The translations under genes were made by a program, and so were the position numbers. The notes beneath the pieces are model-generated. The model was given only the letters and a program-made list of their open reading frames with translations. It did no database searches and was not told the DNA's origin. From the NCBI RefSeq assembly GCF_009193215.1, contig NZ_VYVA01000001.1, positions 434,001-498,000 on the forward strand: 64,000 bases of DNA, read 5' to 3'. The stretch comes from Flavicella marina (GTDB lineage: Bacteria; Bacteroidota; Bacteroidia; Flavobacteriales; Flavobacteriaceae). Positions 23,759 to 55,157 of the stretch are shown here, piece after piece; position 1 is the first letter of the stretch; each line of letters begins with the position of its first letter.

Positions 23759-25249
23759 ATGCAGAATCTATCTCTTTTAATTATTTCATTTTTTTTCGTC
23801 TTCCAGAACAACCATGCAAAAATCACTCAAAACGAAATAAAACAAGACTCTTTATCGCAAATAGCAGAATCAGAGATTGAAAAATCACAAGATTTAACAG
23901 CATTGGCCTATTATCCTGAAGCCTATGATAAATTATGGAATGTTTTATTACTCTCAGACTCGATCAACAACCCTGTAACAAAATACAAGGCCTACAAAAA
24001 CTTATCAATTTTATATTCTATTTTTCACGATAGAAAAAACGCAAATTCCTCTATTGATTCGATGTTTTACTATGCAAAAAAAGCAAAAATAACATCGTTA
24101 CAAACGCAATGTAATTTGCATTATGCAGCTGCAATTACATACAGAACGAACAACAAACTGGAAAAAGCCAAAGCACAAATAGAAATCTGCAATAGCATAT
24201 TAGACTCATTACAAACACCTTTTAAAGAAAGGCTCTATATACTTACAGAACAGGCACACCAACAAACTTTAGCTGGTGAATTTTTATCTTCAGAAAAGAC
24301 ACTTCTAGAAATTTTATACAGCATCAGCGAACAACATAACTATATTTCTATAATCTATTCAATGCTGGGAGATTTATATCAGAAAAAAAATAAAATGACA
24401 CTTGCACTTTCTTATTACGATAAAAGCTTAAGTGCAATTGCCAAACAAAACAGTAGGATTGGCCTAAAAGTAGGTTTGCTCGAAAAAAGTTCTAACATCA
24501 ATTATCAGTTAGGAAACCATAAAAAAGCTTTTGAATTGATGACCGCTTCGAAAAAACTTGGAGACAGCCTCTTTGGAAGTCAAAGTTCTAGAAACAAGAA
24601 ACTATTTGAAATAAAAGATTCGTATCGAAAAACTATCCAAGAAAACAAAAAAATAAAAAAAGAACAAGAATTGAGTCTTTTGAAAGCAGCAAAAGACAAA
24701 ACTCAAATTCAACTCCTATTCACGAGTATATTAGTCATCATCTTATTGATATCATCTTATATAAGTTATCGACTTATCAGCAAGAAACATCAATTAGAAA
24801 AAAAATTAGCCTCTGAAAAGTCCCATGCAGCAATCAAACTAAAAGAAAAAGAACTTGCATTTACTGCACTTCAAATTATAGAAAAAGACAAACTCTTATC
24901 TGAAATAAAAATTGGCCTAAATAACATAGCAACAACACAACAAGAAGCATCTATAAAAAAACTAAAAAGCAGTATAAACGTTAGTTCAAACACGATGTGG
25001 GAAGAGTTCGAAACAAGGTTTATTCAAGTAAACGGTGAATTTTACGCCTCATTAAAAAACTTGCACCCTGATTTAAGCAGAAATGAATTGAGAATTTGTT
25101 CTTTAGTAAAACTAAATTTTTCTACTAAAGAAATGGCTTCCCTTATGGGAATCTCAGCTGATAGTGCAAATAAAGCACGCTATCGTCTCAGAAAAAAACT
25201 ACACTTAAATCGAGATGCAAACTTGGTTTCTTACATAAATAGCTTATGA
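23759..25249 (+). CDS. TPR-containing membrane regulator with LuxR-type HTH
   Basis: A 496-residue protein with a signal-like N-terminus (about 1-21), TPR-type helical repeats (about 50-290), one membrane helix (about 317-340) preceded and followed by charged coiled-coil stretches, and a C-terminal helix-turn-helix region (about 415-496) with LSRNELRICSLVKLNFSTKEMA and GISADSANKARYRLRKKL, typical of the LuxR-like domain in Bacteroidota membrane regulators. Its TPR part would be periplasmic and the HTH cytoplasmic. ATG codons at 23754 and 23759 are out of frame with each other; 23759 opens this frame. It is convergent with the GH3 gene, their ends overlapping by six bases. Control of the sugar locus is inference. 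Confidence 0.8.
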   Translation: MQNLSLLIISFFFVFQNNHAKITQNEIKQDSLSQIAESEIEKSQDLTALAYYPEAYDKLWNVLLLSDSINNPVTKYKAYKNLSILYSIFHDRKNANSSIDSMFYYAKKAKITSLQTQCNLHYAAAITYRTNNKLEKAKAQIEICNSILDSLQTPFKERLYILTEQAHQQTLAGEFLSSEKTLLEILYSISEQHNYISIIYSMLGDLYQKKNKMTLALSYYDKSLSAIAKQNSRIGLKVGLLEKSSNINYQLGNHKKAFELMTASKKLGDSLFGSQSSRNKKLFEIKDSYRKTIQENKKIKKEQELSLLKAAKDKTQIQLLFTSILVIILLISSYISYRLISKKHQLEKKLASEKSHAAIKLKEKELAFTALQIIEKDKLLSEIKIGLNNIATTQQEASIKKLKSSINVSSNTMWEEFETRFIQVNGEFYASLKNLHPDLSRNELRICSLVKLNFSTKEMASLMGISADSANKARYRLRKKLHLNRDANLVSYINSL

Positions 25250-27823
25250 TTTAGAAGATTTATATACCTCTGACACTATAAAAGCTTCTTTATCACCTGG
25301 CGGAATAATCTTTATTGACTTCACCTTAGCGCTACCTTTGAGTGTCGTAATTTTCAATTCTACAGGCTTACCATATTCGGGAGGTATGGGGATTTTCACT
25401 GATAATTTTAAATCTTTTGGAGCTTTATAACTCTTTATTTTCGCTCCTTGCATAGAAGTTTCTATTTCAGCACCTTCAGACACAGAGTCGAACACGATTT
25501 CTGCATCCCAAGTATTTACGTAAAAACCAGGATCTGTAAAAACAAACCTATAAGACACCCAATCATTCATCGACTTTTCAGAAGCTTGCGTTGTCTTTTT
25601 ATCAGCTTCATTTTTATATATATGATTCCATTTTTTATCTCTGTTTGCATCTTCAGAATCATAATAACCACTTTTTTGTCCTACTCTAATTGGTGCGATC
25701 TCTCCAGATTTGACAGCAATCTTTTTTATTGCTACAATTCTATCACTCGAATTTCCTACAAGAATTTCAAAATCTCCTTTTTCAACAATAAATTTTTCTT
25801 TTTTAACATCATATCGAGCAAATGCCTCAAAAGGAATTTTTATTTTAACCACTTCTGATTCACCACTTTTTACATGTACTTTTTTGAATCCTTTGAGTGA
25901 TTTAATCGGTGTCATTTCAGAAGACTTTACATCTCTTATATAAACTTGCACCACCTCATCGCCATCAATCAATCCTGTATTATCAACCGTAGCTGAGACA
26001 AAAAGATCTTTCATTGCCTTTAATTTCTTCGTACTTAATTGCACATTTTTGATCTCAAAATTGGTATAACTCAATCCAAAACCAAACGGGTACAAAGGAC
26101 TTCCATCAAAATACATATAAGTGCGTTTTCCCTCTCGAATCTTATAATCATTAAAATCTGGCAAATCATCAACTGATTGATACCAAGTCGAATTCAATTT
26201 ACCTCCAGGATTAACTTTTCCGAACAACACATTGGCAAGTGCAGTGCCTTGTTCTTGTCCATTTGGCCAAGCACAAACGATGCCCGGAATATTTTCTTGC
26301 TCCCAATTGATGGCAGTAGGACCACTTGGCACCAAAACTAAAACCACATTTTTATTTACTGCCTGTACAGCCTTTATTAATCGATGTTGATTTCCAGGTA
26401 ATTGTAATGATTTTCTATCCAGATTTTCGGTTGAAGTACTCTCATCATTTCCGACTACCAATACAACATACTCACTTTTTTTAGCCAATGCAACAGCTTG
26501 ATCTATTTTAACTTGATCATCTTCAGCTCCTATAACAGAGCAGCCTTCAGCAAACCTAACGTTAGCATCAGTATAATTTTCAATACCGCTTAAAGGACTT
26601 ATTTTATTTTTCGGATGTCCAGAATATATCCCCATCCAACAACGATTTGCAAATGGACCAATTACCGCTAAGTTTTCAATATCTTTCTTTAAGGGAAGAA
26701 TAGCTTCATTTTTTAATAAAACAATCGCCTCTTCTGCAGCTTTCAATGCTAGAGACCTGTGAGCATCACATTCTAAAACAGAAGTTGGTATTTCTGAATA
26801 TGGATTTAATGAAACATTATCAAAATCAACTGTTCTAAATCTCAGTTTCAGCAACCTTCTTACTGACACATTCAATTCTTCTTCACTAATTAAACCTTGT
26901 TCAATCGCGGGCTTTAATGCATAAACCATCGGAGCAAATTTTTCTAATCTTCTTCGGAAACACTCTTGATCTACCCCTGCTTTTATAGCCATGGCAGCCG
27001 CTTCGGGTTGCGATGAAGCATATTTCATATTTTTTTCAATACCTTCAACCGCAGTCCAATCTGCAATCACATACCCTTGAAATCCCCACTCGTCTCTCAA
27101 AACATCATTGACCAACCAATTATGTGCTGAACACGGAATTCCGTTCAATCCATTCAATGCTGTCATAATACCTGAAGCTTCTTCGTCTATCACACAAGTT
27201 TTATATGCAGGAAAATAATATTCGTACAAATCTTTTTTTCCAATATTAGAATGAATCCTCTCTCTTCCTTTGTCAACATTATTCGCAACATAATGTTTTA
27301 CAGTAGTCACAGCTTTTATATATTTCGAGTCGTTTCCTTCCATCCCTCTCACATACATTCGAGCCATTTCAGACATTAAAAACGGATCTTCACTATAACA
27401 CTCTCCATTTCTTCCCCATCGAGGGTCTCTAGCCATATTAACCGTTGGAGAAAACATCATCACTTCTTTCTTACCCATGTTTTTTAAAGCGCGAACTTCA
27501 TTTGATATTGCGGTAGCGACATCGAACATTAAATCTGGATTCCACGTGCTTCCCATGGCTATGTTCTGAGGAAACTGAGTACAGTTCCAGCCAATTACTC
27601 CATGCAACGCTTCACCATACCATTCAAAATCTGGAATATCTAATCTCTCAATACCAGGAATCACTGAACCACAATAACTGATCTTTTCATCCAATGTCAT
27701 TTTAGACAATAAGTCTTCAACCCTTTCGTCAATAGTTGCATCTGGATTTGTCCACTGCCCTTGAACTGTTAAAGAGGTAATAAATAGTGTGACAAACCAC
27801 ATCATCTGCTTAATAAATTTCAT
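25244..27823 (-). CDS. Glycoside hydrolase family 3 enzyme
   Basis: An exported exo-acting glycosidase of family GH3, with 859 residues from the ATG at 27823 (MKFIKQMMWFVTL); a longer frame to 27898 has a poor start. After a signal peptide ending at VQGQ, the N-terminal GH3 barrel has EALHGV, RDPRWGRNGECYSED, VKHYVANN and the nucleophile Asp 255 in YVIADWTAV. The C-terminal GH3 domain has the likely acid/base region STSTENLDRKSLQLPGNQ, followed by a fibronectin III-like domain (GFGLSYTNFEI) and an extra C-terminal beta region of about 110 residues. The sequence is nearest the beta-xylosidase/beta-glucosidase branch. Its substrate in a galactan locus is unclear. Confidence 0.9.
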   Translation of the reverse strand: MKFIKQMMWFVTLFITSLTVQGQWTNPDATIDERVEDLLSKMTLDEKISYCGSVIPGIERLDIPDFEWYGEALHGVIGWNCTQFPQNIAMGSTWNPDLMFDVATAISNEVRALKNMGKKEVMMFSPTVNMARDPRWGRNGECYSEDPFLMSEMARMYVRGMEGNDSKYIKAVTTVKHYVANNVDKGRERIHSNIGKKDLYEYYFPAYKTCVIDEEASGIMTALNGLNGIPCSAHNWLVNDVLRDEWGFQGYVIADWTAVEGIEKNMKYASSQPEAAAMAIKAGVDQECFRRRLEKFAPMVYALKPAIEQGLISEEELNVSVRRLLKLRFRTVDFDNVSLNPYSEIPTSVLECDAHRSLALKAAEEAIVLLKNEAILPLKKDIENLAVIGPFANRCWMGIYSGHPKNKISPLSGIENYTDANVRFAEGCSVIGAEDDQVKIDQAVALAKKSEYVVLVVGNDESTSTENLDRKSLQLPGNQHRLIKAVQAVNKNVVLVLVPSGPTAINWEQENIPGIVCAWPNGQEQGTALANVLFGKVNPGGKLNSTWYQSVDDLPDFNDYKIREGKRTYMYFDGSPLYPFGFGLSYTNFEIKNVQLSTKKLKAMKDLFVSATVDNTGLIDGDEVVQVYIRDVKSSEMTPIKSLKGFKKVHVKSGESEVVKIKIPFEAFARYDVKKEKFIVEKGDFEILVGNSSDRIVAIKKIAVKSGEIAPIRVGQKSGYYDSEDANRDKKWNHIYKNEADKKTTQASEKSMNDWVSYRFVFTDPGFYVNTWDAEIVFDSVSEGAEIETSMQGAKIKSYKAPKDLKLSVKIPIPPEYGKPVELKITTLKGSAKVKSIKIIPPGDKEAFIVSEVYKSSKS

Positions 27824-28035
27824 AAAATAAATATTTAGATTAACTAAGCCCAAAACTAACAACAGTGAATAGAACCTCACAAAATAACGTATGGACAAAA
27901 CACGGACAAACGGAATTTATACATAACATACGATTACAACAACAGCATAAATGGTTTCTCTTTTTTTAGCATGATATTTTTGGGTTACTACTCTATAAAA
28001 TCATAAATTACCCACCATTAATCAACGTTATTCAA

Positions 28036-28593: not shown

Positions 28594-28598
28594 AAACA

Positions 28599-30357: not shown

Positions 30358-32118
30358 TTAGTTATTTACTTCTTGATTGTAAAGTACTTCTGTCAAAGGC
30401 AATGGTAAATAGTCATGCAAAGCAGTATTGTACTCTGAAGCTGCTGTTTCAAATTCTTTCAACTGAACCGTTGGATCGGTTGGTGCTGTTGGACTCATAC
30501 CTTCAGTGATCAAACTTTTATTTCTATTAGGTACATCAACTCCTGTCGGCGTATAGTTATCTAAATAAAAGTCCATTGCAGCCAAATCTTGAAATCTTTG
30601 TTTTGCAACTCCCCATCTTCTTAAATCAATCGTTCTTTCAAAATGTCCTTCTAAAGACAATTCAAGAGGCTTTTCAACATGTCTCAAATGTTCTCTTAAA
30701 GTTTCTTGCGTATAAACCACACCATCAAAATCATGATTAGAACCATCAGATACTCCGAGAGATTCAACTCCCCATCTTTGACGAATTTTATTGATATGCT
30801 CAATTGCACCCGCCAAATCACCAGTTTCTATCAAACATTCTGCTTGCATCAAATACGCATCTGCCAAGCGATAAACAACCACATTTTTACCAGATTTCCA
30901 TGGGGTTTGTGCGATATCACCCTCTGAAGAAACGATATCGTGATTGGTGAATTTTTTGAAGAAAGAAAAAATTGTTCCTCCGAACCCAATCAAACTATTA
31001 GCAGCAGGAGCTTGGTAATACTCCGATGTTTCATCATTAACAACTGCTATCATCTGAGCTGCTCTCAACGGTACATTTCTAAGCTTGGTACCTCCTGAAC
31101 CGTCATCTACATAATTTCTGGTATCATTTGAATCTAACACCTCTTTAGAATACGCATGCGTCAACCAAGAAGAAGGCACAAAATACGCCGTACCTTGAAT
31201 TGGTTGTCCTGCTGGTGCTGAAAATCTAGGCCATCTAGTAAAAAAACTTTCTTCATCCCATGTGTTATCCTCTAATTGATGCTGGTCTGAATTGTTGATT
31301 TCAAAAATAGATTCTGCATTAAAATCACCTGCAGAAGTAAATAATAAACTTACCTCATCTCCTTCTAACAGTCTATATCCGTATGCACTGTTATTAATCA
31401 CATCATTCAAATACACCATTGCTTTTGTATACTCTTCTGTATATAAATAGGTCTTACCTAATAACAAAGCCGCTAAACCTGCGTTTGCTCTCGTCTTTTG
31501 AACTTGTTGTGCAGGTAGATTTTGGTACGCATACTCTAAATCTACTCTAAAGAAATCTTGAACTACATCAGCATCTGTTAATCCCGTTGAAAACTCAGAA
31601 GGATCAGCAGGAATTTTATCTCTTAAAATAATTTTTCCGTTATTATACGTTGAATGCAAGTAAAAATGAGCTAATCCTCTAAAAAAACGAGCTTCTGCCA
31701 TTTGGATTGTCCACCTTTCATCTGATTTAAACTCAGCATCCATACCTTCTAATCCCTGAATCACTTGATTCGCTCTAAAAATCACTTGGTATAAAGCTTC
31801 CCATTTTCTAGAAACATCAATTATACTATTGCTAAATCGCTTCTCATACCAAGGCAGTCCTTTTTGGTAAGAATTAGTTCTTGACTTTGGGAAACCCAAA
31901 TCAGATCGCCAAGCCTCTATATCAAAACCCCAGATAAAATGATTGTACATTGCACCGTATACAGATGTTAAGTTCGAATTTGATTCTTCTAGGTTCGACC
32001 AATAAATATCAGCTGAAACACTATTTGGATTGGTTTCTTCTAGCGACTCATCAGAACACGCAGTAATAGCACCAACCATTAAAATCATACTTATGAAATA
32101 TTTAATTTTCGTTTTCAT
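30358..32118 (-). CDS. susD: SusD/RagB-family glycan-binding lipoprotein
   Basis: The surface lid that captures oligosaccharides over its SusC partner. The 586 residues begin with a lipoprotein signal (ITACSDE, Cys 21). SusD family features follow: the helical TPR-like N-terminal part with FRANQVIQGLEGM and EARFFRGLAHFYL (about residue 145), LLLGKTYLYTEEYTKAMVYLNDVI, and the C-terminal RLADAYLMQAECLIETGDLAGAIEHINKIRQRWG and EFE-like ELSLEGHFERTIDLRRWG segments. It follows susC by 11 bases in the same operon. Confidence 0.95.
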   Translation of the reverse strand: MKTKIKYFISMILMVGAITACSDESLEETNPNSVSADIYWSNLEESNSNLTSVYGAMYNHFIWGFDIEAWRSDLGFPKSRTNSYQKGLPWYEKRFSNSIIDVSRKWEALYQVIFRANQVIQGLEGMDAEFKSDERWTIQMAEARFFRGLAHFYLHSTYNNGKIILRDKIPADPSEFSTGLTDADVVQDFFRVDLEYAYQNLPAQQVQKTRANAGLAALLLGKTYLYTEEYTKAMVYLNDVINNSAYGYRLLEGDEVSLLFTSAGDFNAESIFEINNSDQHQLEDNTWDEESFFTRWPRFSAPAGQPIQGTAYFVPSSWLTHAYSKEVLDSNDTRNYVDDGSGGTKLRNVPLRAAQMIAVVNDETSEYYQAPAANSLIGFGGTIFSFFKKFTNHDIVSSEGDIAQTPWKSGKNVVVYRLADAYLMQAECLIETGDLAGAIEHINKIRQRWGVESLGVSDGSNHDFDGVVYTQETLREHLRHVEKPLELSLEGHFERTIDLRRWGVAKQRFQDLAAMDFYLDNYTPTGVDVPNRNKSLITEGMSPTAPTDPTVQLKEFETAASEYNTALHDYLPLPLTEVLYNQEVNN

Positions 32119-32129
32119 ATGTTTTTATA

Positions 32130-35100
32130 TTAAAAAGTTAATTTAAGTCCCATTGTGTATAAAGCACTTACTGGGTATCTAGATACATCTAGACCTCTTC
32201 TTGCAACATTTCCGCCTCCAACTTCAGGATCATATCCTTTATATTTTGTAAAAGTCAATGCGTTTTGTGCCTGCATGTATAGTCTTAGTTTTGTAAGACC
32301 TATACGCTCACATAGTCCAGGACTGAAAGAATATCCTAACGAAATCAACTTAAGTCTCACATAATCTCCACTTTCTAACCATTGATCTGTAACTCCTGTA
32401 TAATTATACAAACCACTTTTTGAATCTCCTGTGTGTAGGGGAATATTTGAAGTTGGATTGTCTGGTGTCCACATTCCAGTTAAGCCTTTATGGGCTCCGT
32501 TCGTAAATGCTGCGGCGTTGTTACCGTTTAATATTTCTGAACCAAATGTACCATACCAATTCATCACCAAATCCCAACTTTTATAACTGAACGTAGAATT
32601 GAATCCCATTTCAAAATCTGGCAACGCACTTCCAAGGTATTGTCTATCAGCTTCATTTATAACTCCGTCACCGTTGTGATCTATATATTTCAAATCTCCT
32701 AATCTTGCATTTTCTCTACCACCTAATTGCTTGTATTCATCTAATTCTTCTTGTGTTTGAATTACACCATCTGTTTTAAACAAGAAGAAAGAACCTACTT
32801 CGTATCCTTCAGCTAAAACGGTAGTTACAGAGTTCTGATCACCAGAAATCAAAGTAGAGTTACTATTGTAAATCAACGGTTGCCCATCTTGCATCTTGGT
32901 TATTTTGTTCGAGTTTTTCGTAAAAGTAGCTCCTACTCTTAGTCTCGATTTCCCAAAGTTTTGTTGGTAATTTGCTGCTAACTCCATACCTCTATTAGTC
33001 ATATCACCGATATTCAGCGTGGTAGTTGTATCATAATATGCTCCCGAAGATGCTGGTAGTCTCACTGGAAACAACATGTCTTTTTTCTGCGTATTATAAA
33101 AATCTGCCGTTAGAGAAAATTTATTTCGCAAGAACGAAACGTCCACACCCAAATTCTGTTGAACAGATGTCTCCCACTTTACATTTTCATTCGCGTAAGA
33201 ATAAATCGCAGTCCCAAAATCTACTTGCGTATCAGTTTCGTCAAAAATATAGTCTGCACCTTGTTGAATTGTTGCTGCATATTCATAAGCAGGGAAACTA
33301 TCGTTACCTACCGTACCTATACTTGCTCTAATTTTTAAGTTATTTACTACTGGTTTTATAGAAGACCAAAAATCTTCACTAGACATATTCCAACCAGCAG
33401 AAACCGATGGGAAGGTTCCCCAGCGATTCGAGCTACCGAACTTAGAAGATCCATCTCTACGAATCAAAGCTGATAATAAATATTTTCCTTGGTAGTTGTA
33501 TTGCAATCTACCTAAGAAACCTATTGTTCTCACATTATAATTGAAACCAGAAGTTGCATTTGGATTAATATTAGCTCCGTTCAACACTTCGATACTATTA
33601 TTCGCTACCCCTTCTTTACGAGCAGTAAAATCTTCAAAATGCTCTTCAAGCAATGTAGCTGAAGCTAATAAATTAAAGGTATGACCACCAATTTTTTTCT
33701 TGTAATTCAAACTACCATCCCAAGAAATTGAATTGAATCTTGAGTGTTGATTGATCACCCAACTTTTTATAGGATCCACTTCCGTAGTATTGTCTTCAAT
33801 ATCAAAAACCCCAAATTTAGGTACAAACTGATGATTCAAAATATTATTCACATTTACTCCTGCTCTTGTAATAAAATAAAAATCCGGAGTAAAATTATAG
33901 CTCAAACTTAAACTTCCGTTTATTTTATCTTGTCTTCTGTTTGTTTTACGTTTCAATGCTTGTGCTAAATTGTTCGCTGGTGTTGTAACTCCTCCACTAC
34001 CATTTGAAACGATAATTTCAGCATCAGGATCAATTTGAGGATAGTACGGAGGATATTTCATTGCTGTGATCAACAAACCTGAACTCACCACATCTTTATC
34101 ATCTAAAGTAAAAGCTAAACTCGTATTTATTTTCCACTTGTCAGACTTGTATGTCGTAGTGGCACGTCCATTCAGTTTTTTATATCCCGAATTGATTATC
34201 GTTCCTTCTTGATTGAAATAACCTACTACTGCATTATAGGTAAATGAATCTGTACCTCCAGTAATATTTAAATTGTGTTGCGTTGTACCTGCATAATCTA
34301 CCAATACATAATCTCTAAACTCATTGTCGTTATTCAACCATTCAGGATTATTATGTGGACCAGGTGGAAATTGAGATGAAACCAAGTTGTATTTTTGCAA
34401 GTCATATCTTAGTCTTTCATCTGTATTCATCAAAGGGGTACCTGTACCTAATGACTGCACACCATACGAAGTATCAAACGAAACTCTAACATTACCCGCT
34501 GTACCACGTTTCGTAGTAATCAAAATAACCCCAGCAGCACCTCTTGTCCCATATACGGCAGCAGAGGCAGCATCTTTCAAAATATCAATTGTTTCAATTT
34601 CGTTTGGAGCCAATCCTGGATCTCCTTGTTGCGGAATACCATCTACAACAAACAAAGGTGTATTACTACCTGATAATGAGGTAATACCCCTAATTTGAAT
34701 ATTAGAAGACTCACCTGGTTCTCCACTCGCAGCTGTAACATTTACACCTGCAACCATACCTTGTAGAGAATTGGCAACATCCGGTGCAACAAAATCTTCA
34801 ATCGCTTCGGCTTTTACTTGAGATACTGCCCCGGTAACTTCTTTCTTTTTCTGAGCACCGTATCCGATTACAACAACTTCTTCTAAGTCTTCAACATCAG
34901 GAGACAAAGAGACATTTGCGGTTGCTCCGTTTACTTTGAGTGTTTGTGTTGTCATTCCAATAAATGTAAATTCTAGAGTATCTCCTTGATTTGCAGAAAT
35001 TGTGAATTCACCGTCAAAATTGGTCGTTGTACCCACAGCGGTACCTTTGACAATAACTGTTACACCAGGAATGGGCATATTGTCTTCTTGACTGACCACC

Positions 35101-39362: not shown

Positions 39363-39372
39363 CTTTCTATTT

Positions 39373-44472: not shown

Positions 44473-45618
44473 TTACTGAATAACAATTGTTTTTACCGCA
44501 ACACTATTTTCAGAAATAATTCTAAAATAATAGATACCATTTTTCAAAAAAGAGACATCTAAAACTACTTCACCGTTTTCATTTGTTGGAATAATTTTTC
44601 TCACCAATATGCCGAATGAATTGTAAATTTCTACAGGAACATTTTCAGTCATGGTCAGATAGTCACTTGCAGGATTTGGATAAAAAACCACTTCGGTATC
44701 TTCTACTTCTTCAGGAATTGACAGAGTGTCTGTTTTTTGAGAAACCAATACATCATCCACATAAAACACACCTTTTCCTCCTTGAAAGTCAGGATTGTTG
44801 TACGTGGCAATTTTCAACTGCGCATTTTCGGGCTTTTCTTTTAAAATAATTTGCTTCGTCATCTTTACCCATTCACCGGTTGGTAACTCTGAGATTACCC
44901 ATTCAGTTGCTACCCATGGATTGGTTACAAAGGTGTAAAACGAACTAACCGTTGTATTTTCTTCAAGCCAAACATTCAGTGAAATTTCGTACTCACCTGG
45001 AGTAAATCCTAATTCACTATCTATATTTGCCAAAACAAATGATTGTAAAGGAACTTTTACAGGAACAACTTCTCGCTCTACCAAAATTTGCAAATCATCA
45101 ATATAGAAAGTTCCTTTACCTCCAAAGCCTGGTTCAACAATAACGCGAATATTTACTTGATTTAGTGTTTCTGTTAGAACTAAATTTGTTGAAACCTCAA
45201 CCCATTGCCCTTTTGCTATGCCATCTAAACTAAACGTCACAGCTTCTTTTACCGTTGTATCTTCTCTAAAATCTAATTTAAAATGACTTGTTTCCACATC
45301 ATTTTCTAACCAGACCATAGCTTTTACTGGATAAGTGCCTGGCTCAAGCGTCACCAACATTGCAGTAATATCCTTGCTTCCAAAGATTCTCTTATTGCCT
45401 GACACAGTGGTTGCACTTGTATATTTTAAACTACCCAAGGAACCATTCGATGCTTTATCGTTTACTAAAGAAAAATTATCAGGGTGTTGTATCCACCAAC
45501 CGGTATCACCTGATGTTATCTCAAAACCATAATAGTTACTATCTAAAATATTTACCAATTCGGTTTGAGCGAAAGTAATTTGAAACAAAAATATCGCTAG
45601 AAATTTAATCTTTTTCAT
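44473..45618 (-). CDS. T9SS-exported protein with two binding modules
   Basis: A non-catalytic secreted protein of 381 residues from the ATG at 45618 (MKKIKFLAIF), 15 bases after the upstream 988-residue gene. Signal peptide cleavage lies near FAQ. Two related jelly-roll-like modules follow (about 75-180 and 190-295), each with a WLEEN/WLENDV strand, KGQWVEVS or TGEWVKM, and a GKGTFYIDD or GKGVFYVDD end. The last 75 residues are a type A T9SS sorting domain (VVFYPNPASDYL to IKTIVIQ-like end). The same module ends the lipoprotein at 28664. It is probably a surface-anchored or released polysaccharide-binding protein helping the adjacent enzyme. No catalytic motif is seen. Confidence 0.85.
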   Translation of the reverse strand: MKKIKFLAIFLFQITFAQTELVNILDSNYYGFEITSGDTGWWIQHPDNFSLVNDKASNGSLGSLKYTSATTVSGNKRIFGSKDITAMLVTLEPGTYPVKAMVWLENDVETSHFKLDFREDTTVKEAVTFSLDGIAKGQWVEVSTNLVLTETLNQVNIRVIVEPGFGGKGTFYIDDLQILVEREVVPVKVPLQSFVLANIDSELGFTPGEYEISLNVWLEENTTVSSFYTFVTNPWVATEWVISELPTGEWVKMTKQIILKEKPENAQLKIATYNNPDFQGGKGVFYVDDVLVSQKTDTLSIPEEVEDTEVVFYPNPASDYLTMTENVPVEIYNSFGILVRKIIPTNENGEVVLDVSFLKNGIYYFRIISENSVAVKTIVIQ

Positions 45619-45633: not shown

Positions 45634-48600
45634 TTAATTTAAAGGTTGAGCTAAAGTAATATCAATAAATCTGAAACCACCACATGGCACTTCGACTTCC
45701 ACAGCATTTGGATTGCTAATATTATAGCTTGTACCATCAAGAATATCTGACATTCCGACTGGAGTAACCGAGTTGAAATCAACAATTACCTCTCTATCAT
45801 CTGGATTCAAATATTCACCATCAATCAAAGTCAATCTCAATTTAGTAGGTGAAATTTGTGCTGTAACCCATGCTACATTTCCTGAAACTGTTAAAGGCAA
45901 CAAGTCTTTTTTAGTCTCTATTTCATTCTCAATGGTCGTATAATATTCATCTGCATTGTAACGTTGATTTCCATCAGCAGAATAATAATAACGTCCATCG
46001 GTATAATATTCAGTAAGTATATTTTGATATATCGGATGTAAGTTATCTTTTAATTCACCCCTTGCAGCATCGGGTACCGCATGCGCTCCAGCCTGTGGAG
46101 GTGTTATGAGTACCAATCCATTTGGGTATGATGGCAAGTAGTTTTGTCTACGATCTTTGACATGACCAGCATATTTTGAAAAATCCCAGTCGGTAACTTG
46201 AGCTCCACCCCAATTTGCATTTTGTCTACTAAACACGAATGGATTATTTTCAATAAATTCTTCATCATAATGTGTTGCCCATTTCAAGCTACTCGCTTCT
46301 AGCATAAAATCATCATCTGGATCAAACATACTAATATGAACTGGTGATATGCTTAACAATTCGTTTGGTTTGGGAACAAAAAGCGCTCCTTTGGCAGTAA
46401 GCTCCCATACGATGCTCATGTAATCTGGATCGATTGCAAAATTATTCAGGTAGGTAGCTCCGTTGGCCATATGATATATCAAATGACGCAAAAAATGATT
46501 GGGTAATTTTTGATGACAAAATTGTCTAGACCTATCAAAACTAGGGTTGTCAGGTACCGTTCTGGTTCCCCAATCATGAACAGCACCACTCGCCCAAATT
46601 CCAACTCTACTAGCAACACTAATATCCATAGCTTTGTCAGAAGTCTCTTCCATTGAAGGTACAAACACATCTGCAAACTCACCTGACCTCAATCGATCCC
46701 ACATTGGTAGGTAAACATTACCTTGCCAAAAATTATGCTTTGTTCGTACATAAATAGTACCGTTTTTATTCTGTGCATAACTCGCAAGTGGGTAAAACAA
46801 ATCTTCCATTACCCAAGCAAAATCTTCAGAATGATCTTCTAACTCTGGATAAATCAATACCGTTTTTTTATTATTAGCAGCATCTAAGACGAGTTTAGTC
46901 GTACTTAGGTGAAACATATAAGGATCATTTCCATGACCACCCCAATACGCAATACCTTCATCACCATCTGGTGATACACCGTACCAATTTGTAATATGGT
47001 CAACTGCTTCTTGTTGGGTGTAAATATAATTTCTTCTGCTATCTCTTTTATTTTTATACTTTTCGTTCTCCATTGCAGATCGATCCCAATTTTCAGCTTC
47101 ATTCATATGACCACCTCCTAAAAACATTGGAGTCGAATAATTATTTCTGATATAATCATATGTAGTCTTCGCCACACCGCTATCCGTATTCTCGGTCATA
47201 AAATAAATAGCTCTTGCCTCTCTTTGCTCTACAGGTTTCGTATATCCAGCTAAATGTGCTCTGCTCGCTGCAGTGTTTTCTATAATTTTTTGAATCTTTC
47301 CTTTTGGCACCAAGTTCTGATACGCTTCTTTCCATCCAGACATACCTGTATCTAAAATATGAACCTGACTTCCTCCACTTTGACAACTCGCAAAAATCAA
47401 CTGTGATGAATTTGGCTTTTTCCAAACATCGTAATAAGAATAATTCGTGATTAACTTTTCTTGGGATCCACTATCTAAATCGGGGTTCACCAAAACCATT
47501 TGATTACCGACCAGTAACATATACTTAGGGGTAGAAATATCTGTTATTAATTCAGCCTGCATTACAGAGTAACCAAAACCTAAACCAGCCACTGGGTACA
47601 ACTCCAAAGAATCATCAACCAAATTCAAACGTGTTAGATTTGCGCTTTTTTGATGGTTAGAAAACCCCAATAAAACTTCTAGTTTACTATCGTTATCATG
47701 ATCTGAAAACCTTAATTCACCAACCGGACTTGTACCTTGTGTTTCGATTCTTTTTATTGGAGTATCTTCAAGAACATCAAACATATACGTCGCACCTTTA
47801 TCTTGCATGATGTTGTTACTCGCTTGAATCAGCAAATAATCATTGGTAGCGTCTTTAGGCACTGCTTTTAAAAAGTTGGCATAATGAACATAGTCTTTCG
47901 CTTCTGTTTCTCCCCAAGTTTTTTCTTGAGAGTATGTAGATGATTTTAAAGTTTTGGTAAGACTTCCATTTGCTGATAGGTAATAAACATTCAAATCTAA
48001 ACTTCCACCAACAACATATGGAATGTCATTTTTTTTCACAACTGTTATCGCATACATTGGAACTTCGTTTTGTTGGTATTCCCACAAAATTTCACCAGAT
48101 GAGTCTAAGCAATATATTTTTCCATCTGCATTGGCGATCAGTATTTCATCGTTGCCATCTCCGGTAATATCTTCACACCAAATATCGTTGACCATGAAAC
48201 CAGACAACTTGTTTTTCCAATGTATTGCACCATTAAAATCTACTGACATCACAATACCTTCATAAGAACTTGCAATTATCTTAAGTGTATTGTCAAAAGT
48301 TGCGGTACGCACTTTATGAATAGTGTGTTCGGTTTCAATACTATACAAAGGACCTGCTTCAAAAACTTGATTTTCGTTGACTGAAAATTTCAAAGCATAC
48401 TCTCCGTTTAACGATTTCTCGTTTAAAATTGAAAAAACACTGGATGTATCTTTAGCCCAACCCAATCCATTCTCTTCAAAATCGAACAATTGACTAGCTA
48501 AATCCACATCGTCTTCTTGCGCTTTTGTTTCAGTATAAAACCCAAGCAACAAAAGTAGCACTGTAAATAAATGAATTCTTTTTCCTATAACACAAATCAT
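45634..48600 (-). CDS. Propeller-plus-hydrolase protein, probable lambda-carrageenase (GH150)
   Basis: A 988-residue exported protein, signal peptide cleaved near TKAQ. Residues about 60-420 form PQQ- or FG-GAP-like beta-propeller blades (DITGDGNDEILIANADGKIYCLD, FSDHDNDSKLEVLLG). After a linker (about 430-455), residues 460-800 look like an alpha/beta catalytic barrel with acidic and aromatic motifs YWGGHGNDPYMFH, LIYPELEDHSEDFAWVMED, VFVPSMEE and VHDWGTRT, and the end is beta-sandwich-like. The propeller-linker-catalytic plan and about 110 kDa size match what is published for lambda-carrageenase GH150. I cannot align it to that family here. The binding protein at 44473 is co-transcribed with it. 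Confidence 0.55.
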   Translation of the reverse strand: MICVIGKRIHLFTVLLLLLGFYTETKAQEDDVDLASQLFDFEENGLGWAKDTSSVFSILNEKSLNGEYALKFSVNENQVFEAGPLYSIETEHTIHKVRTATFDNTLKIIASSYEGIVMSVDFNGAIHWKNKLSGFMVNDIWCEDITGDGNDEILIANADGKIYCLDSSGEILWEYQQNEVPMYAITVVKKNDIPYVVGGSLDLNVYYLSANGSLTKTLKSSTYSQEKTWGETEAKDYVHYANFLKAVPKDATNDYLLIQASNNIMQDKGATYMFDVLEDTPIKRIETQGTSPVGELRFSDHDNDSKLEVLLGFSNHQKSANLTRLNLVDDSLELYPVAGLGFGYSVMQAELITDISTPKYMLLVGNQMVLVNPDLDSGSQEKLITNYSYYDVWKKPNSSQLIFASCQSGGSQVHILDTGMSGWKEAYQNLVPKGKIQKIIENTAASRAHLAGYTKPVEQREARAIYFMTENTDSGVAKTTYDYIRNNYSTPMFLGGGHMNEAENWDRSAMENEKYKNKRDSRRNYIYTQQEAVDHITNWYGVSPDGDEGIAYWGGHGNDPYMFHLSTTKLVLDAANNKKTVLIYPELEDHSEDFAWVMEDLFYPLASYAQNKNGTIYVRTKHNFWQGNVYLPMWDRLRSGEFADVFVPSMEETSDKAMDISVASRVGIWASGAVHDWGTRTVPDNPSFDRSRQFCHQKLPNHFLRHLIYHMANGATYLNNFAIDPDYMSIVWELTAKGALFVPKPNELLSISPVHISMFDPDDDFMLEASSLKWATHYDEEFIENNPFVFSRQNANWGGAQVTDWDFSKYAGHVKDRRQNYLPSYPNGLVLITPPQAGAHAVPDAARGELKDNLHPIYQNILTEYYTDGRYYYSADGNQRYNADEYYTTIENEIETKKDLLPLTVSGNVAWVTAQISPTKLRLTLIDGEYLNPDDREVIVDFNSVTPVGMSDILDGTSYNISNPNAVEVEVPCGGFRFIDITLAQPLN

Positions 48601-48702: not shown

Positions 48703-49989
48703 TTAGTTGATAACCAATTTTGTTATTGCTGTCTTTCCTGCATTTTCTATTTTTACGAAATAAATTCCAGACGTCAGTCCTTGTAATGATATTTCACTAA
48801 CTGCTTTAGTAACAATCTTATTTTTCAATGCTACTCCTGTTGCATCATAAATTGACACATTACTGTTGTTTGGAGCCTCTACATTTACAGCATCCGTTGC
48901 TGGGTTTGGGTATACTGATACGCCTTCTAAGGTGTTTTTAGACACTGAAGCTTCTGCATCTTTATATAAAAAACCGTCTACTCTCTGCGCTACTGTAAAC
49001 CCCTCTTCTAGAGGATCTAAAGTTATTTGTGCCAATTGACCTGCTGATAGCGTTGGAAATTTTATCTTATCATCAGCGAAATTTTGGATTTTAACAGATG
49101 CTGTTTCCCAATCTGCATTTGCAGCACTAAACTCAACTGTATTTACACCAAGATTATCGATATCAAAAATCAACGTTCCAGTTCCTCTTAAATCTAAAGA
49201 ACCAATCGTCTGAGCACTATTAAACTCAATTGTCGAAGTGGCTGTACCTGTTTTTTCTAATTCTCCAGAAAGTGAATTCGCACCATTCAATATCAAAGTT
49301 TGGTCCGAATCATCATTCATATACAATTTAGACCCAGATGGAATAAACTTATCCACCCCAGCTGTATTAACGGTTAGCGTACCATTGTCTTCATATTCAA
49401 TATTCCCAGTAAAAGCACTCAGATCTGCATTTACACCAAAAATATAACCACCTGTAGATGCTGCATGATCAAACAAACGAATATCTTTTGCACCTGTTAC
49501 TACTCCATCAAATTCAAAAGTAGCCAAACTAGAATAGTTTCTCAATTTTAAAATTTGATCTAATTGCAATGTACTATTTGACCCCATTTTGATACCTTGA
49601 TCTGCAGTACCCGTAATATCGGTGTTTTTGACTGAAGCCTGAGCGTAAATCACTTTACAATCGACAATAAACAGTGCATCTTTATTCTGATACAAACCAG
49701 CATCTCCGTTAAATGTAATAGCGCTACCACCTGTACTAGATAGTGTATAACTTGTTGTATTTGAATCAGATCTTAGAAACCTTAACGAGATATCTTCATC
49801 TAAAGTTACATCTGCTTGTATAAAAACATTATCACCTGCAACCGGTTTGGTATCATCAGACCAATTGGTCGCTGTGCTCCATAGCGCATCTGTAGTTCCG
49901 TTAAAAGTTCTATCTGCCTGAGCATTTCCGTTTTGATTTGCAAACAGTATTGCAACCAATAAATTTGTAAAAAGTAATTTTTTAATCAT
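48703..49989 (-). CDS. T9SS-exported repetitive beta protein of unknown function
   Basis: A 428-residue protein with a signal peptide (cleavage near GNAQA), a long Asn/Thr/Ser-rich beta region resembling autotransporter-like passenger strands (ATNWSDDTKPVAGDNVFIQADVTL at the start, later LNGANSLSGELEKTGT), and a type A T9SS sorting domain (about 355-428, GVSVYPNPATDAVNV to ITKLVIN). The opening W..A.NW motif occurs in many surface beta-helix proteins. It has its own transcription unit between the CBM9-like gene and the 988-residue gene. It may be a surface adhesin or glycan binder. No enzyme motif is seen. Confidence 0.8.
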   Translation of the reverse strand: MIKKLLFTNLLVAILFANQNGNAQADRTFNGTTDALWSTATNWSDDTKPVAGDNVFIQADVTLDEDISLRFLRSDSNTTSYTLSSTGGSAITFNGDAGLYQNKDALFIVDCKVIYAQASVKNTDITGTADQGIKMGSNSTLQLDQILKLRNYSSLATFEFDGVVTGAKDIRLFDHAASTGGYIFGVNADLSAFTGNIEYEDNGTLTVNTAGVDKFIPSGSKLYMNDDSDQTLILNGANSLSGELEKTGTATSTIEFNSAQTIGSLDLRGTGTLIFDIDNLGVNTVEFSAANADWETASVKIQNFADDKIKFPTLSAGQLAQITLDPLEEGFTVAQRVDGFLYKDAEASVSKNTLEGVSVYPNPATDAVNVEAPNNSNVSIYDATGVALKNKIVTKAVSEISLQGLTSGIYFVKIENAGKTAITKLVIN

Positions 49990-50975: not shown

Positions 50976-51014
50976 AAAAGATTAATGTTTGACAAAACAA
51001 TCGTGATTCAACTG

Positions 51015-54000
51015 CTATGCTTCATTTGATTTTTCTCCACCATTTTTCACATGAGTGGCGTACTTACCTGGTGTAACACCATATTTCTGAAGAAATACTC
51101 TACTAAAATGCGGCCTACTCTTGAACCCAGTAAGCGTATATACTTCGTTGACTTTCATATCTTCATTTGCCAACAAACCAGCAGCTTTTTTAAGCCTATA
51201 ATTCTTCAACAACTCAAAAGGTGTTTGACCTGTCAAGGCTTTTACTTTCTGGTAAAAATGAGTTCTATTTAGATATAAGTCTTTCACAAAACTGTTGAGA
51301 TCTAAGTCTTGATTATCTAAATTATCATCAATTAACTTATACAACTTCTCAAGAAACAATACATCTTTTGAACTTTCTTCACCTGACTCTAATTTTAATG
51401 GGATATCTGTTTTAAATCGCTCTCTTAATGTTTTTCTGTTTTTTAAGATCGATTCGATTTTCGTTACTAAAAACTGAATATTGAATGGTTTTTTAACATA
51501 AGCATCCGCTCCATCCTGTAGTCCTTTTAATTGATCTTCAACCGATGTACTTGCTGTAAGCAATACTACAGGAATATGACTCGTTTTTATATCCGTTTTG
51601 ATATGTTTACATAAGTCGAATCCATTCATAACTGGCATCAAAACATCACTTACTACAATATCGGGCCAATCATTTTCCATAGCTTTTATACACCCCTCGC
51701 CATCGACAAAAGTTTCTACTTCAAAAAACTCTGACAATATAGTTGAAACAAACTTCCTCATTTCACTATTGTCTTCTGCAAAAAACACTTTGGCACCCGA
51801 AAATTCTGGATCTACAATTATTTTTGAAAGACTCTTTGTTTTGTCTGTCGTTAGATGAGATACTATCGATTTTTCAGAAGTTAAAATTTGTTGCTCTTTA
51901 TCTTCAAGTGTGGCATCATAGTCTTCGGTTACAATTGGTAATATAACCGTAAATTTTGTTCCTTCTCCGAATACACTTTCTGCAAAAATTTCACCATAAT
52001 GCATATCTACCAGACGTTTTGCAAATGCCAATCCAATACCAGAACCACCTATATATTCACTATGTTTTTTTTCTGATTGATAAAAACGCTCAAAAATATG
52101 AACGATATCTTCTTCGTCAATTCCTCTTCCAGTGTCTTCAAAGGTGATTGTTACATTATTATCTTGTTGCCCAAATGTCACGATTACTTTATCCCCAGCA
52201 TCTGTGTATTTAAAAGCATTGTTTAAAATGTTATTGCATATTTTTTCTAACTTGTCTCTGTCTGCAGAAACATAAACATTATCAACCTCTTCTTTCAATT
52301 GCAATGTTTTTTGATCTGTATGCGCCATAAATTGAAAATTCTCGACAATTTCTTCTACAAATGCATTAAAACTAAAGGTAGAAAATCGCATTTTCAACAA
52401 ATTGGCATCTGATCTTTGAAAATCATGAACTTGATCTACCAATTGTGAGATTTTTTTAGATTGTCTTTGAACAATTGTCAATTTATCTGTGATGTCTGGA
52501 TTGTTTTTAAAACGATCTAACAACAACGCAACGGGTCCAGAAATTAAAGTAAGAGGTGTTTTGATTTCATGAGATATATTTGAAAAAAAGCGCAATTTCG
52601 CATTGTTTATATTTTTTACATTGTCTATTTCTAATTGTTCTATCTCTACCTTATGATTCAGTTTTTGAATTTTAAAAATCACAGCACCAATTAAAGAGAC
52701 AACCCCTAACAAAAGCACAAAATAAAGTAGGTATGCCAAATTACTTTTCCAAAAAGGAGGTACGATTGTAATCAGCAGTTTTCTCGGCTGCGTCCATTTC
52801 CCTAAAGAATTAGAGGCCATCGCTGTCAACTGGTAAGTACCTGGCTGCAATCCAGAATACGAAAGTGTTTTTTTATCAGAAGACACTGTTACCCAACCGT
52901 CTGTAATTGAACTGAACTTATATTTTATTTGATGATTCTTTGGATTGGAAAAATGCAAAGATGTTAGGTCAATTGAAAATACATTCTCGTTATATTTTAA
53001 CTCAAGATGTTTTGTTTCGTTTAAACGTTGTTTTAACAACACTCTATTTTGAACCGTATCGTTTGAAACGATTGCATCGTTATGAATTTTTAAATTCTCA
53101 AATTCTAATCTAGGCAACGCTTCAGTGCGTGAAGCTGCTTTCGGATTGAAATAACACAACCCCTTATCCCCCGAAAATATCAACAGTTTATTTTTATAGC
53201 TTTTCGCATTAAAACCAAAATCTTCAAACGGAAGTCCTTCATCGATTGTAAACTTTCGAATGTGATTATCTTTCGTGTAAAATTTATTCAAACCAATATT
53301 TGTGCTAATCCACAAATTATTCTCCACATCAGATAAAAGTGATTTCACTACATTATTTGACAAACCATCTTTTTCTGAGATTGCCATAAATTTAGCATCA
53401 GCATCACTATCGATCACCTTACAAAAACCTCCACCTTCAGTACCTACATAAAACTCTTCATTCTGCAAGCGAATAGCACTTGTTACAAAATTACTTGATA
53501 TCGAATACGCATTATTTACATCATGGGTAAATTGAGTTACCTCTACATCTTTCAAATCAGTATTAGAAGTATAATCTAATCGAAACAACCCATCTGAATC
53601 TGCTCCGAGCCAAATATATTTATGCAATGGATCGGCATAGACATTTCTTACTAGTGACAATTTTTTATCAGCAAATTTTGGATGGACAGCATTTATAGAT
53701 TCAATATGTTTCACATCTCGTTTAGTATCCAAAGAAATTTTTATCACATCATTTGTTGTCCCTAACCAAATATTTCCATAAGCATCTTCGGCAAACGATC
53801 TTGGTGACATTCTCGAAAATATAGGAATACTCGTATCAATAATTTTCTCTTTTCGAAAAGCATCTTTTCTTATTCTATACAAACCCTTGGTTCCTAATCG
53901 AAACCATAAATCTTTTTTAGAATCAATAAATACATCTGTAACACGATTCTTGTCCTCTTCCGACAACTTGTAATTTACTTTTTCAAAGGACTTGGTCTTA

Positions 54001-55157
54001 AGGTTGTATAACTTCAATCCTCCTTTATTGAGTGCAATCAGTATTTTTTTTCCTTCGTAATTATGAAAACTATGAATTGCAGAAAAACTCATCTGTTGAT
54101 TATTCTTCAAAGGATTTTTTAGATGTTTGAAAGGGTTTTCTTTGATGTCAAATTGGAAAACACCTTTATTGAAAGTAGACAACCAACAACCTCCTATCGA
54201 TGAAAACAGCGCACCGCTTGCACGCAATAAACCATTTTTTTGATGCATCGTTTCATAGCCACAAGCCTCTCCCTTTACAAACTTATCGCTCTCCGAAATT
54301 TTCAACACACCATTGTCATTCATACCAAGCCATAAACTACCATATCTATCTACTCCTACACTCGTAAACACCTGATCATTTCTACGCGTATATTTCAACT
54401 CTATACTATATGAATTGTTCAAGTCTTTTTTATAGCTAAGTACACCAATTCCTCTATTAAGAGTTACCAATATAGTATTATTGTTATATCGAGAAATATC
54501 ATTCGCCGCTTGAGAAAACTTAAAATCTTCATTAGAAATATCAGTGAACTTCTTAGAAATCACATTAAATAAATACAACCCTTCACTCGTCGAAAAGAGA
54601 TAATGAAATTGATCTAACTTTTCTAAATCGTAGTATGATATATCTTCGATTGGAATGGTATATTTTGCTTCCAAAGAATAATCTTCAGAAAAAATCAAAA
54701 TTCCATTTTTTTCTGTCACCGCTACAACAAACTTATTTTCTTTATCTACAAACTGTCGTCTTACAATAACCTCACTATCCCCATCGTTGGCATTCGGATA
54801 AATCGCATTGAATTTTTCAGTTTCGTAATTGTAGCGAGAGATTCCTTTATCAGTACCAATCCAAAGATCACCATTCTTATCTTCAACCATCGAGCGAACT
54901 CTATTACTCAACAATAATTTATTCCCAATGGTATTTTTATAAGTTTTCAATTTATAACCGTCGTACCTATTGAAACCATCATAAGTTCCAAACCACAGAA
55001 ACCCTTTTGAATCTTCTAATATAGAGGTTACACCATTATGAGCCAGACCATCTGAAATTGTGATGTTCTTTTTTACAAGTAATTCTTTGTCTTGCGCAAA
55101 AGAATTTAGAATTACAAATAGTAACAATAATATGCTAAGCTTGTTTTTTGAACTCAA
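51015..55157 (-). CDS. Hybrid two-component system (HTCS) regulator
   Basis: A one-protein sensor and DNA-binding regulator that typically binds an oligosaccharide in the periplasm and activates its sugar locus. The 1380 residues contain a signal peptide, a double seven-bladed propeller of reg_prop repeats (about 25-690; GFLWFGTYDGFNRYDG, GDLWIGTDKGISRY), a Y_Y_Y domain (about 725-795), a membrane helix (about 805-825), HisKA with His 863 (SNISHEIKTPL), HATPase (DTGRGIDEEDI, GGSGIGLAF), a receiver domain (about 1120-1240, VSDVLMPVMNG) and an AraC-type HTH (about 1270-1372). Only TTG at 55157 can start the signal peptide. It sits at the right end of the locus. Confidence 0.95.
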   Translation of the reverse strand: MSSKNKLSILLLLFVILNSFAQDKELLVKKNITISDGLAHNGVTSILEDSKGFLWFGTYDGFNRYDGYKLKTYKNTIGNKLLLSNRVRSMVEDKNGDLWIGTDKGISRYNYETEKFNAIYPNANDGDSEVIVRRQFVDKENKFVVAVTEKNGILIFSEDYSLEAKYTIPIEDISYYDLEKLDQFHYLFSTSEGLYLFNVISKKFTDISNEDFKFSQAANDISRYNNNTILVTLNRGIGVLSYKKDLNNSYSIELKYTRRNDQVFTSVGVDRYGSLWLGMNDNGVLKISESDKFVKGEACGYETMHQKNGLLRASGALFSSIGGCWLSTFNKGVFQFDIKENPFKHLKNPLKNNQQMSFSAIHSFHNYEGKKILIALNKGGLKLYNLKTKSFEKVNYKLSEEDKNRVTDVFIDSKKDLWFRLGTKGLYRIRKDAFRKEKIIDTSIPIFSRMSPRSFAEDAYGNIWLGTTNDVIKISLDTKRDVKHIESINAVHPKFADKKLSLVRNVYADPLHKYIWLGADSDGLFRLDYTSNTDLKDVEVTQFTHDVNNAYSISSNFVTSAIRLQNEEFYVGTEGGGFCKVIDSDADAKFMAISEKDGLSNNVVKSLLSDVENNLWISTNIGLNKFYTKDNHIRKFTIDEGLPFEDFGFNAKSYKNKLLIFSGDKGLCYFNPKAASRTEALPRLEFENLKIHNDAIVSNDTVQNRVLLKQRLNETKHLELKYNENVFSIDLTSLHFSNPKNHQIKYKFSSITDGWVTVSSDKKTLSYSGLQPGTYQLTAMASNSLGKWTQPRKLLITIVPPFWKSNLAYLLYFVLLLGVVSLIGAVIFKIQKLNHKVEIEQLEIDNVKNINNAKLRFFSNISHEIKTPLTLISGPVALLLDRFKNNPDITDKLTIVQRQSKKISQLVDQVHDFQRSDANLLKMRFSTFSFNAFVEEIVENFQFMAHTDQKTLQLKEEVDNVYVSADRDKLEKICNNILNNAFKYTDAGDKVIVTFGQQDNNVTITFEDTGRGIDEEDIVHIFERFYQSEKKHSEYIGGSGIGLAFAKRLVDMHYGEIFAESVFGEGTKFTVILPIVTEDYDATLEDKEQQILTSEKSIVSHLTTDKTKSLSKIIVDPEFSGAKVFFAEDNSEMRKFVSTILSEFFEVETFVDGEGCIKAMENDWPDIVVSDVLMPVMNGFDLCKHIKTDIKTSHIPVVLLTASTSVEDQLKGLQDGADAYVKKPFNIQFLVTKIESILKNRKTLRERFKTDIPLKLESGEESSKDVLFLEKLYKLIDDNLDNQDLDLNSFVKDLYLNRTHFYQKVKALTGQTPFELLKNYRLKKAAGLLANEDMKVNEVYTLTGFKSRPHFSRVFLQKYGVTPGKYATHVKNGGEKSNEA

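Follow-up and report, generated by a model that had tools for sequence, protein, structure and literature searches.

A probable lambda-carrageenan utilization locus of Flavicella marina, in which the GH150 enzyme and its neighbor appear to carry separate parts of a CBM4/16-like module

The degradation of lambda-carrageenan has been biochemically demonstrated for a cascade of Pseudoalteromonas distincta U2A that comprises a glycoside hydrolase family 150 (GH150) enzyme, S1_8 2-O-sulfatases, GH110 and GH2 enzymes and S1_15 6-O-sulfatases (PMC12549532), and GH150 is described in the same source as a family active solely on lambda-carrageenan. A characterized lambda-carrageenase comes from Maribacter vaceletii (PMC11202985), and Flavobacteriaceae bacterium S85 was noted in a 2018 paper to have GH150 together with GH2 and GH110 (PMC6262041). 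Here we analyze a stretch of 64,000 nucleotides (hereafter, the window) from the 3.16 Mb genome of Flavicella marina (contig NZ_VYVA01000001.1, positions 434,001 to 498,000), which harbors a Bacteroidota polysaccharide utilization locus (PUL) that is very probably directed at lambda-carrageenan. The locus fits a shortened form of the published cascade. In addition, its GH150 enzyme appears to begin with the first part of a module resembling carbohydrate-binding module families 4 and 16 (CBM4/16), with the counterpart residing on the protein encoded by the neighboring gene.

All PUL genes lie on the reverse strand, in an order running from position 55157 down to 28664 according to the list of open reading frames (ORFs) and Pfam matches (Table 1). 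The locus brings together the GH150, GH110 and GH2 genes that mark lambda-carrageenan PULs, and contains both the SusC/SusD pair and the sensor-regulator that mark PULs of the Bacteroidota. An earlier note on this DNA had proposed lambda-carrageenan as the substrate, reasoning from SusC/SusD, a GH2 enzyme, a GH110-type galactosidase, three sulfatases and a 988-residue protein resembling GH150. The ORFs it listed are all present, and Pfam agrees with it on the co-occurrence of SusC/SusD, GH2, GH110 barrels and the three sulfatases in one locus. The 988-residue protein is indeed a GH150 enzyme, matching the propeller, middle and C-terminal domains of lambda-carrageenases over their cut-offs (PF25292, E 1.2e-117; PF25290, E 8.9e-189; PF25291, E 8.5e-32), and the galactosidase finds its closest solved structure in GH110A from the lambda-carrageenan PUL of P. 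distincta U2A (E 1.5e-212, versus 9e-79 for GH110B). The gene set matches the published cascade except for the third sulfatase, and the proposed substrate is hence supported.

Six acidic positions (D391, D559, E586, E651, D684 and D806) are invariant across 80 aligned GH150 sequences and constitute candidate catalytic residues. In the GH110 protein, D324 and R460 of GH110A are found at the same places in its own numbering. D324 is the residue mutated in the inactive form of GH110, and R460, the presence of which counts in favor of the proposed substrate, has been tied in Pseudoalteromonas GH110A to a 6-sulfate pocket that allows galactose-6-sulfate, with GH110B presenting a glutamate at this position (PMC12549532). 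Among 39 aligned GH110 sequences from GH150 loci, including the one in the window, position 460 is occupied by arginine in 29, glutamate in six and proline in four. The window GH110 is therefore predicted, from its sequence, to be an exo-6-sulfo-alpha-galactosidase.

The sulfatase encoded at 37890 is closest to the solved structures of S1_8A and, next, S1_8B from the Pseudoalteromonas lambda-carrageenan PUL, and that at 42826 to human N-sulfoglucosamine sulfohydrolase, an activity belonging to S1_8 (PMC12549532), followed by S1_8A. Since both are nearest to S1_8-type structures, two desulfation steps would have fitting enzymes. The third sulfatase is closest to BT1622 and BT1636, listed as S1_20 3-O-sulfatases (PMC10154620), scoring 266 bits against BT1622 and 153 bits against S1_15A, and no 6-O-sulfatase of the S1_15 kind was found in the locus when the three sulfatases were compared with solved structures. 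It is thus a candidate 6-O-sulfatase by elimination only, and the 6-sulfate step lacks a confirmed enzyme. Together with the GH2 protein, which has closer matches among GH2 structures than the lambda-carrageenan GH2 of U2A, this third sulfatase weighs against the assignment of the locus to lambda-carrageenan.

The predicted sequence of predicted reactions would be as follows. The hybrid two-component sensor (HTCS) would sense an oligosaccharide, and GH150 would cleave lambda-carrageenan extracellularly to give lambda-neocarrageenan oligosaccharides, which would be imported through SusC/SusD and the 560-residue surface protein. One S1_8-like sulfatase would take the 2-sulfate off the terminal alpha-galactose, the GH110A-type enzyme would then free this residue as galactose-6-sulfate, the second S1_8-like sulfatase would take the 2-sulfate off the next beta-galactose and GH2 would then free galactose, with the third sulfatase probably clearing galactose-6-sulfate. 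A SusC/SusD bacterium would offer here a compact, testable lambda-carrageenan locus, in which the prediction for GH110 reaches the level of residues and the 6-O-desulfation step has a candidate enzyme only.

The GH150 protein of the window presents a signal-peptide-like N-terminus, and neither a type IX secretion system (T9SS) sorting tail nor a lipobox was found in it. The next ORF opens in frame directly after the GH150 stop codon (TTG, then ATG at codons 4 and 6) and encodes a protein, hereafter the partner, that ends in a type A C-terminal sorting domain (PF18962, E 9.8e-12; TIGR04183, E 3e-10). Hidden Markov models (HMMs) of the CBM4/16-like module were built from ten partner proteins, with no GH150 included. 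Beyond the window, the partner-built HMM matched the N-terminal part of the module (N-part) in other flagged GH150 N-termini with E-values from 2.8e-10 (locus L052), 5.8e-8 (L036) and 7.5e-8 (L037) to 0.03 (L078), and in a held-out GH150 at E 1.5e-12. Reciprocally, an HMM of GH150 N-parts alone found the N-part of the partner in the window genome (E 1.5e-6), and L054 and L163, both outside the build of the A5 HMM, were found by it at E 1.4e-16 and 2.7e-13. By sequence, the N-part stands alone on GH150, and its C-terminal counterpart (C-part) stands alone on the partner, behind a complete copy of the module. There appears to be no room for the missing part in either protein, since the propeller follows the GH150 N-part at once and only a short distance separates the signal peptide from the C-part in six partners, where the latter begins at residue 36-59.

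The complete module of the partner (residues 23-187) adopts a jelly-roll fold resembling CBM4/16/22, as indicated by fold matching of an AlphaFold2 (AF2) model. The AF2 model obtained with alignment A4 reached a predicted local distance difference test (pLDDT) score of 83.9, versus 45.1 for the single-sequence model. In its strand list, compared without superposition, the strands of the orphan C-part are spaced as in the first C-part, with no counterparts of the N-part strands. Furthermore, five of eight GH150 N-parts match positions 1 to 35-41 of PF21253, a galactose-binding-like domain of 143 positions, with E-values of 0.00065 to 0.049 that all fall below the Pfam cut-off.

Given that a GH150 without a tail starts with an N-part and that the T9SS-tailed protein of the next gene holds a matching orphan C-part, the two parts would be expected to join, and once joined they might anchor the carrageenase at the cell surface or transport it there. 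We advance this proposal tentatively, with somewhat less than even confidence. That the enzyme rides through the type IX translocon and stays on the surface, the module acting as an adaptor in place of binding sugars or in addition to it, is a possible if doubtful extension of it. T9SS cargo has been described as being exported folded (PMC9251779). Tail-like C-termini are present in all 11 partners examined, and PF18962 matches 17 of the 21 rows of alignment A4, which includes stand-alone modules. The GH150 proteins with a tail of their own (L060, L098, L073, L159 and one on contig C12) all lack the N-part, L060 in spite of standing beside the N-part-bearing L052 on the tree. Overall, 16 of the 79 GH150s without N-part, and none of the 19 with it, present their own tail or lipobox (p 0.036, kinship ignored). 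Lipoboxes were called with home-made rules, yielding 7/98 under strict and 13/98 under permissive settings, and the permissive set includes three sequences (L051, L062 and L087) from outside the Bacteroidota, where T9SS is not expected. The distribution is only suggestive of own signals and N-parts being alternative routes to the surface.

The partner could instead be a plain extracellular carrageenan-binding protein, with the joined parts aiding substrate binding and playing no role in export. The CBM4/16/22-like fold of its complete copy speaks for this, as does the use of the module elsewhere: it seems to be an ordinary accessory because a complete copy is also found behind a T9SS-tailed GH16 in this genome and a C-part at the end of the 560-residue SusD-linked protein (residues 466-550; C2 HMM, E 9.3e-12). 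We regard this account as quite plausible, if short of probable. It leaves unexplained by what route a GH150 that has neither a tail nor a lipobox exits the periplasm, and the restriction of own tails and lipoboxes to GH150s without N-part argues against it.

The proposed joining of the two parts also draws on their association across GH150 genes. Among the 21 GH150s with an N-part, the partner lies directly downstream in 17 and directly upstream in two, and is hence adjacent in 19; in the Saccharicrinis sequences L093 and L163 it lies directly upstream, ~50 and ~120 bp away. In a tree set of 98 GH150s, a protein with a C-part is encoded directly downstream of 16 of the 19 sequences with an N-part and of none of the 78 without it. 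Fourteen of these 19 N-parts were identified by HMM at E < 0.05 and five (L045, L054, L070, L086 and L093) by eye, after the idea of a partner had arisen, from the length of the extension and a YxFE...W pattern. L034 was dropped because of a contig end, and L037_19733 and L051, with less than 600 bp downstream, were counted as lacking a partner; outside the tree set were L030_5991, L039_7249, L055_19858 and L074_20885 (<33% identity), the duplicate records of genomes G002 and G004, L038 and, for want of a complete ORF, L057. Counting either side, the partner is present in 17 and absent in two GH150s with N-part, versus six and 72 without it (p 4e-12); if N-parts are counted solely when called by HMM and the held-out set is left aside, the corresponding numbers for a downstream partner are 10 and two versus four and 79 (p 6e-9). 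Kinship is ignored in both, and the four apparent exceptions in the latter table are the cases assigned by eye.

Additional sequences conform to this pattern. Both N-part GH150s of a held-out genome (G409) have a partner (~10 bp gap; overlap), and none of the seven GH150s without N-part that accompany the held-out set, three of them from an already sampled genome, has one downstream. In L041, an orphan C-part protein is preceded by a cut-off GH150, and this enzyme (L156) proved to carry an N-part (E 1.4e-7). The GH150 of the M. vaceletii locus (L038) lacks the N-part, and no module protein is encoded in that locus. On the tree, the N-part label undergoes nine changes, at least seven of them on starred branches. 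In an independent-pairs test, which accounts for kinship, the N-part follows the downstream partner in a mean of 6.2 of the eight pairs differing in this partner and never runs opposite (median p 0.031, range 0.016-0.063); in the reverse test, 5.7 of seven pairs go the same way and none the opposite (median p 0.03, up to 0.125).

Such an association could also result from operons being inherited together. The GH150 segment would then be a degenerate relic and the second copy in the partner a small stand-alone domain, and the two would never meet. This would accommodate the weak score of the window N-part against the partner-built HMM (E 0.0066), the two of 21 N-part GH150s without an adjacent partner, the frequency of module proteins around GH150 genes in general and the joint transmission of related operons. 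We give it some credence, though clearly less than an even chance. The recurrent label changes and the independent pairs, the N-part of the L041 neighbor, which was fetched later, and the match of five GH150 N-parts to just the start of the PF21253 jelly-roll, with nothing after it, all argue against this account.

The weak score of the window copy is one of several observations that weigh against a split module. PF21253 was matched by none of the other three of eight GH150 N-parts, the window copy among them. Of the two N-part GH150s without adjoining partner, L030 belongs to a genome (G004) in which a separate contig bears a partner fragment; in that of L047 (G002), one lies within the same cluster, next to a different N-part GH150. 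Conversely, six of the 78 GH150s without N-part (L027_7002, L029_5520, L043, L045_5584, L054_5480 and L068) have a module protein directly upstream, its modules being apparently complete (judged by eye for L027 and L029), and in 63 of the 79 none of the surface signals searched for was found.

Table 1. Features of the Flavicella marina locus and its left flank (window coordinates).
Feature	Position	Strand	Basis or remark
HTCS	51015..55157	-	Pfam: propeller, Y_Y_Y, HisKA, HATPase, receiver, AraC-type HTH
CBM9-like exported protein, 255 aa	50208..50975	-	PF06452/PF16011
T9SS-tailed protein of unknown fold, 428 aa (T9_428)	48703..49989	-	PF18962
GH150, predicted lambda-carrageenase, 988 aa	45634..48600	-	PF25292, PF25290, PF25291
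Putative N-part of CBM-like module in GH150	48361..48492	-	~residues 37-80; HMM from partner proteins
T9SS-tailed partner, 386 aa	44473..45633	-	complete module, then orphan C-part, then sorting tail
Putative orphan C-part in partner	44728..45036	-	residues ~200-302, no N-part before; C2 HMM
Sulfatase, S1_8-like	42826..44286	-	motif CAASR
GH110 alpha-1,3-galactosidase, GH110A kind	41007..42815	-	Pfam; closest solved structure; residue check (R460, S498)
Third sulfatase	39373..40773	-	motif CSPSR
Sulfatase, S1_8-like	37890..39386	-	motif CSPSR
GH2, predicted exo-beta-galactosidase	35552..37888	-	Pfam
SusC-like TonB-dependent transporter	32130..35213	-	Pfam
SusD-like protein	30358..32118	-	Pfam
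Probable surface glycan-binding protein, 560 aa	28664..30346	-	no Pfam match; C-part of module at C-terminus
Exonuclease gene	28036-28593	+	separates GH3 from operon
GH3 (beta-xylosidase/beta-glucosidase-like)	25244..27898	-	Pfam; judged outside PUL

The extent and conservation of the locus were assessed against 72 distinct GH150 loci from a scan of named genomes; these derive from the 80 best among 138 confirmed stretches, and the sample therefore leans to relatives of the window GH150. The PUL had been placed by the earlier note at 25244-55157. Between the GH3 gene of that interval and the operon lies the exonuclease gene on the opposite strand, and this GH3 has a homologue in just one of the 72 loci, so that it was rejected as a member and the PUL spans approximately 28664-55157. 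The absence of GH16 and GH127 that the same note had reported holds within the window, but not for the genome, which contains 11 GH16 matches, the closest ~8 kb to the left of the window, and four GH127 matches (one weak). GH82, GH117 and GH129 were not found among the 40 of 50 listed window ORFs scanned with Pfam, no genome-wide search having been made for these three families. The PUL is flanked by tRNA-Phe and tRNA-Ser genes, one per side and both outside it. Just beside it are also a gene of the TauE-type sulfite exporter family (56361-57134), which could handle the sulfur oxyanions set free, and the gliding lipoprotein gene gldD (57131-57691).

The 42826 sulfatase has homologues with at least 60% identity in 26/72 loci and GH110 has homologues with at least 50% in 28/72, with both occurring together in 23/72; an HTCS homologue of any length was found in 30/72. 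The SusC and SusD proteins are 63% and 55-56% identical, respectively, to homologues near GH150 in Maribacter (L038 and L039). No homologue of the CBM9-like protein was detected in the 72 loci at E 1e-4. T9_428 was considered as a second carrier of the module and rejected, since without its tail it matches a single locus (L036); a full-length match was also obtained in L041.

The source genome encodes six GH150 genes over several loci. Six matches were likewise obtained in two of eight other genomes searched, and any GH150 in 13 of the 397 genomes sampled from the family. One of these loci (L016, G000:C7:425334-432372), ~2-9 kb to the left of the window, encodes a T9SS-tailed GH16, a GH150 and a GH110 that shares the glutamate of GH110B at the corresponding position, so that both branches of GH110 seem to be represented in the genome. 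Another (L018, G000:C7:1150734-1160481) encodes a GH150, an HTCS 46% identical to that of the window and a GH110 of a third kind, in which position 460 is a proline. In a further region (L019 and L020, G000:C12:228986-236898), GH127 directly precedes two tandem GH150s, ~41% identical to that of the window, one of which ends in a T9SS tail of its own; the arrangement is suggestive of a lambda-like chain containing anhydrogalactose. As a general pattern, adjacency of GH127 and GH150 was rejected, with homologues of this GH127 in none of the 72 loci within the fetched flanks. A nearby protein of 1777 residues, with GH81C, Ig, CBM6 and other parts in Pfam, was rejected as a relative of the partner because the match spans 98 residues and is probably to the tail.

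Elsewhere, a distant GH150 branch (L024:11619-14321, L026:8897-11596 and L055:19858-22503) recurs in the same clusters at 25-29% identity to the window enzyme, a divergence about equal to that between U2A GH150B and CglA (26%). The GH150s of Kiritimatiellota (L062, L063, L064 and L089; 1246-1284 residues) carry N-terminal extensions of 205-241 residues in which the module HMMs gave no match. That the locus targets a related galactan (for instance, of theta, xi or pi type, or a lambda hybrid) through a GH150 of shifted specificity is quite unlikely, for the six GH150 copies, the tandem pair adjoining GH127 and a third sulfatase unlike the S1_15 kind of U2A are set against a GH110A-type pocket and two S1_8-like sulfatases that suit 2,6-disulfated and 2-sulfated galactose, the absence of anhydrogalactose enzyme families among the PUL genes in Pfam and the description of GH150 as specific for lambda-carrageenan cited above.

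If the split module operates as proposed, it would constitute a route through T9SS for enzymes lacking a sorting tail, with a bearing on the tail-less cellulase reported outside the cells of one soil member of the Bacteroidetes (PMC6247017), and would offer a two-part protein tether. The CBM4, CBM16 and CBM22 jelly-roll modules of known structure (PDB 2y6k, 2zew and 4xup) share 15-17% identity with the partner module in two VIA-align rows; unlike them, the module examined here appears to have a further copy divided between two proteins. A binding module interrupted in sequence has been described in the split CBM20 of Toxoplasma laforin (PMC9254107). That interruption is said to lie within a single chain, whereas the division proposed here runs across two genes. 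Transport of a signal-less subunit by a signal-bearing one is described for hitchhiker export through the twin-arginine translocation (Tat) pathway (PaoABC, PMC4273604; hydrogenase, PMC9251779), whereas the route proposed here would be T9SS, across the outer membrane; no hitchhiker-type example was found for T9SS in searches of an open-licence library.

GH150 genes in Bacteroidota clusters have also been described in the gut species Bacteroides xylanisolvens and in Alistipes (PMC13168452, PMC11748540), the former in a PUL that, as described there, also contains GH16, GH82 and GH167. The lambda-carrageenan PUL of P. distincta U2A and PUL 8 of P. carrageenovora 9T resemble the window locus in GH150, GH110, GH2, sulfatases of S1_8 type (S1_8-like in the window) and predicted order of steps (PMC12549532, PMC6262041). 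As portrayed in the available portions of these sources, they differ from it in that the window locus has SusC/SusD and an HTCS, only one GH110, of the A kind, where they have two, lacks an S1_15-like sulfatase, and has a putative GH150 N-part with a T9SS-tailed partner. The S85 locus (L054, recorded as Ochrovirga pacifica S85) shares with the window a GH150 (66% identical), the partner (38%), an S1_8-like sulfatase (72%) and GH110 (66%); it contains two GH150s and has a different gene order, and the available portion of PMC6262041 does not mention a split module. Since its genes fit an abridged version of the published cascade and it is similar to the S85 PUL, the Flavicella marina locus would join a known kind of lambda-carrageenan PUL.

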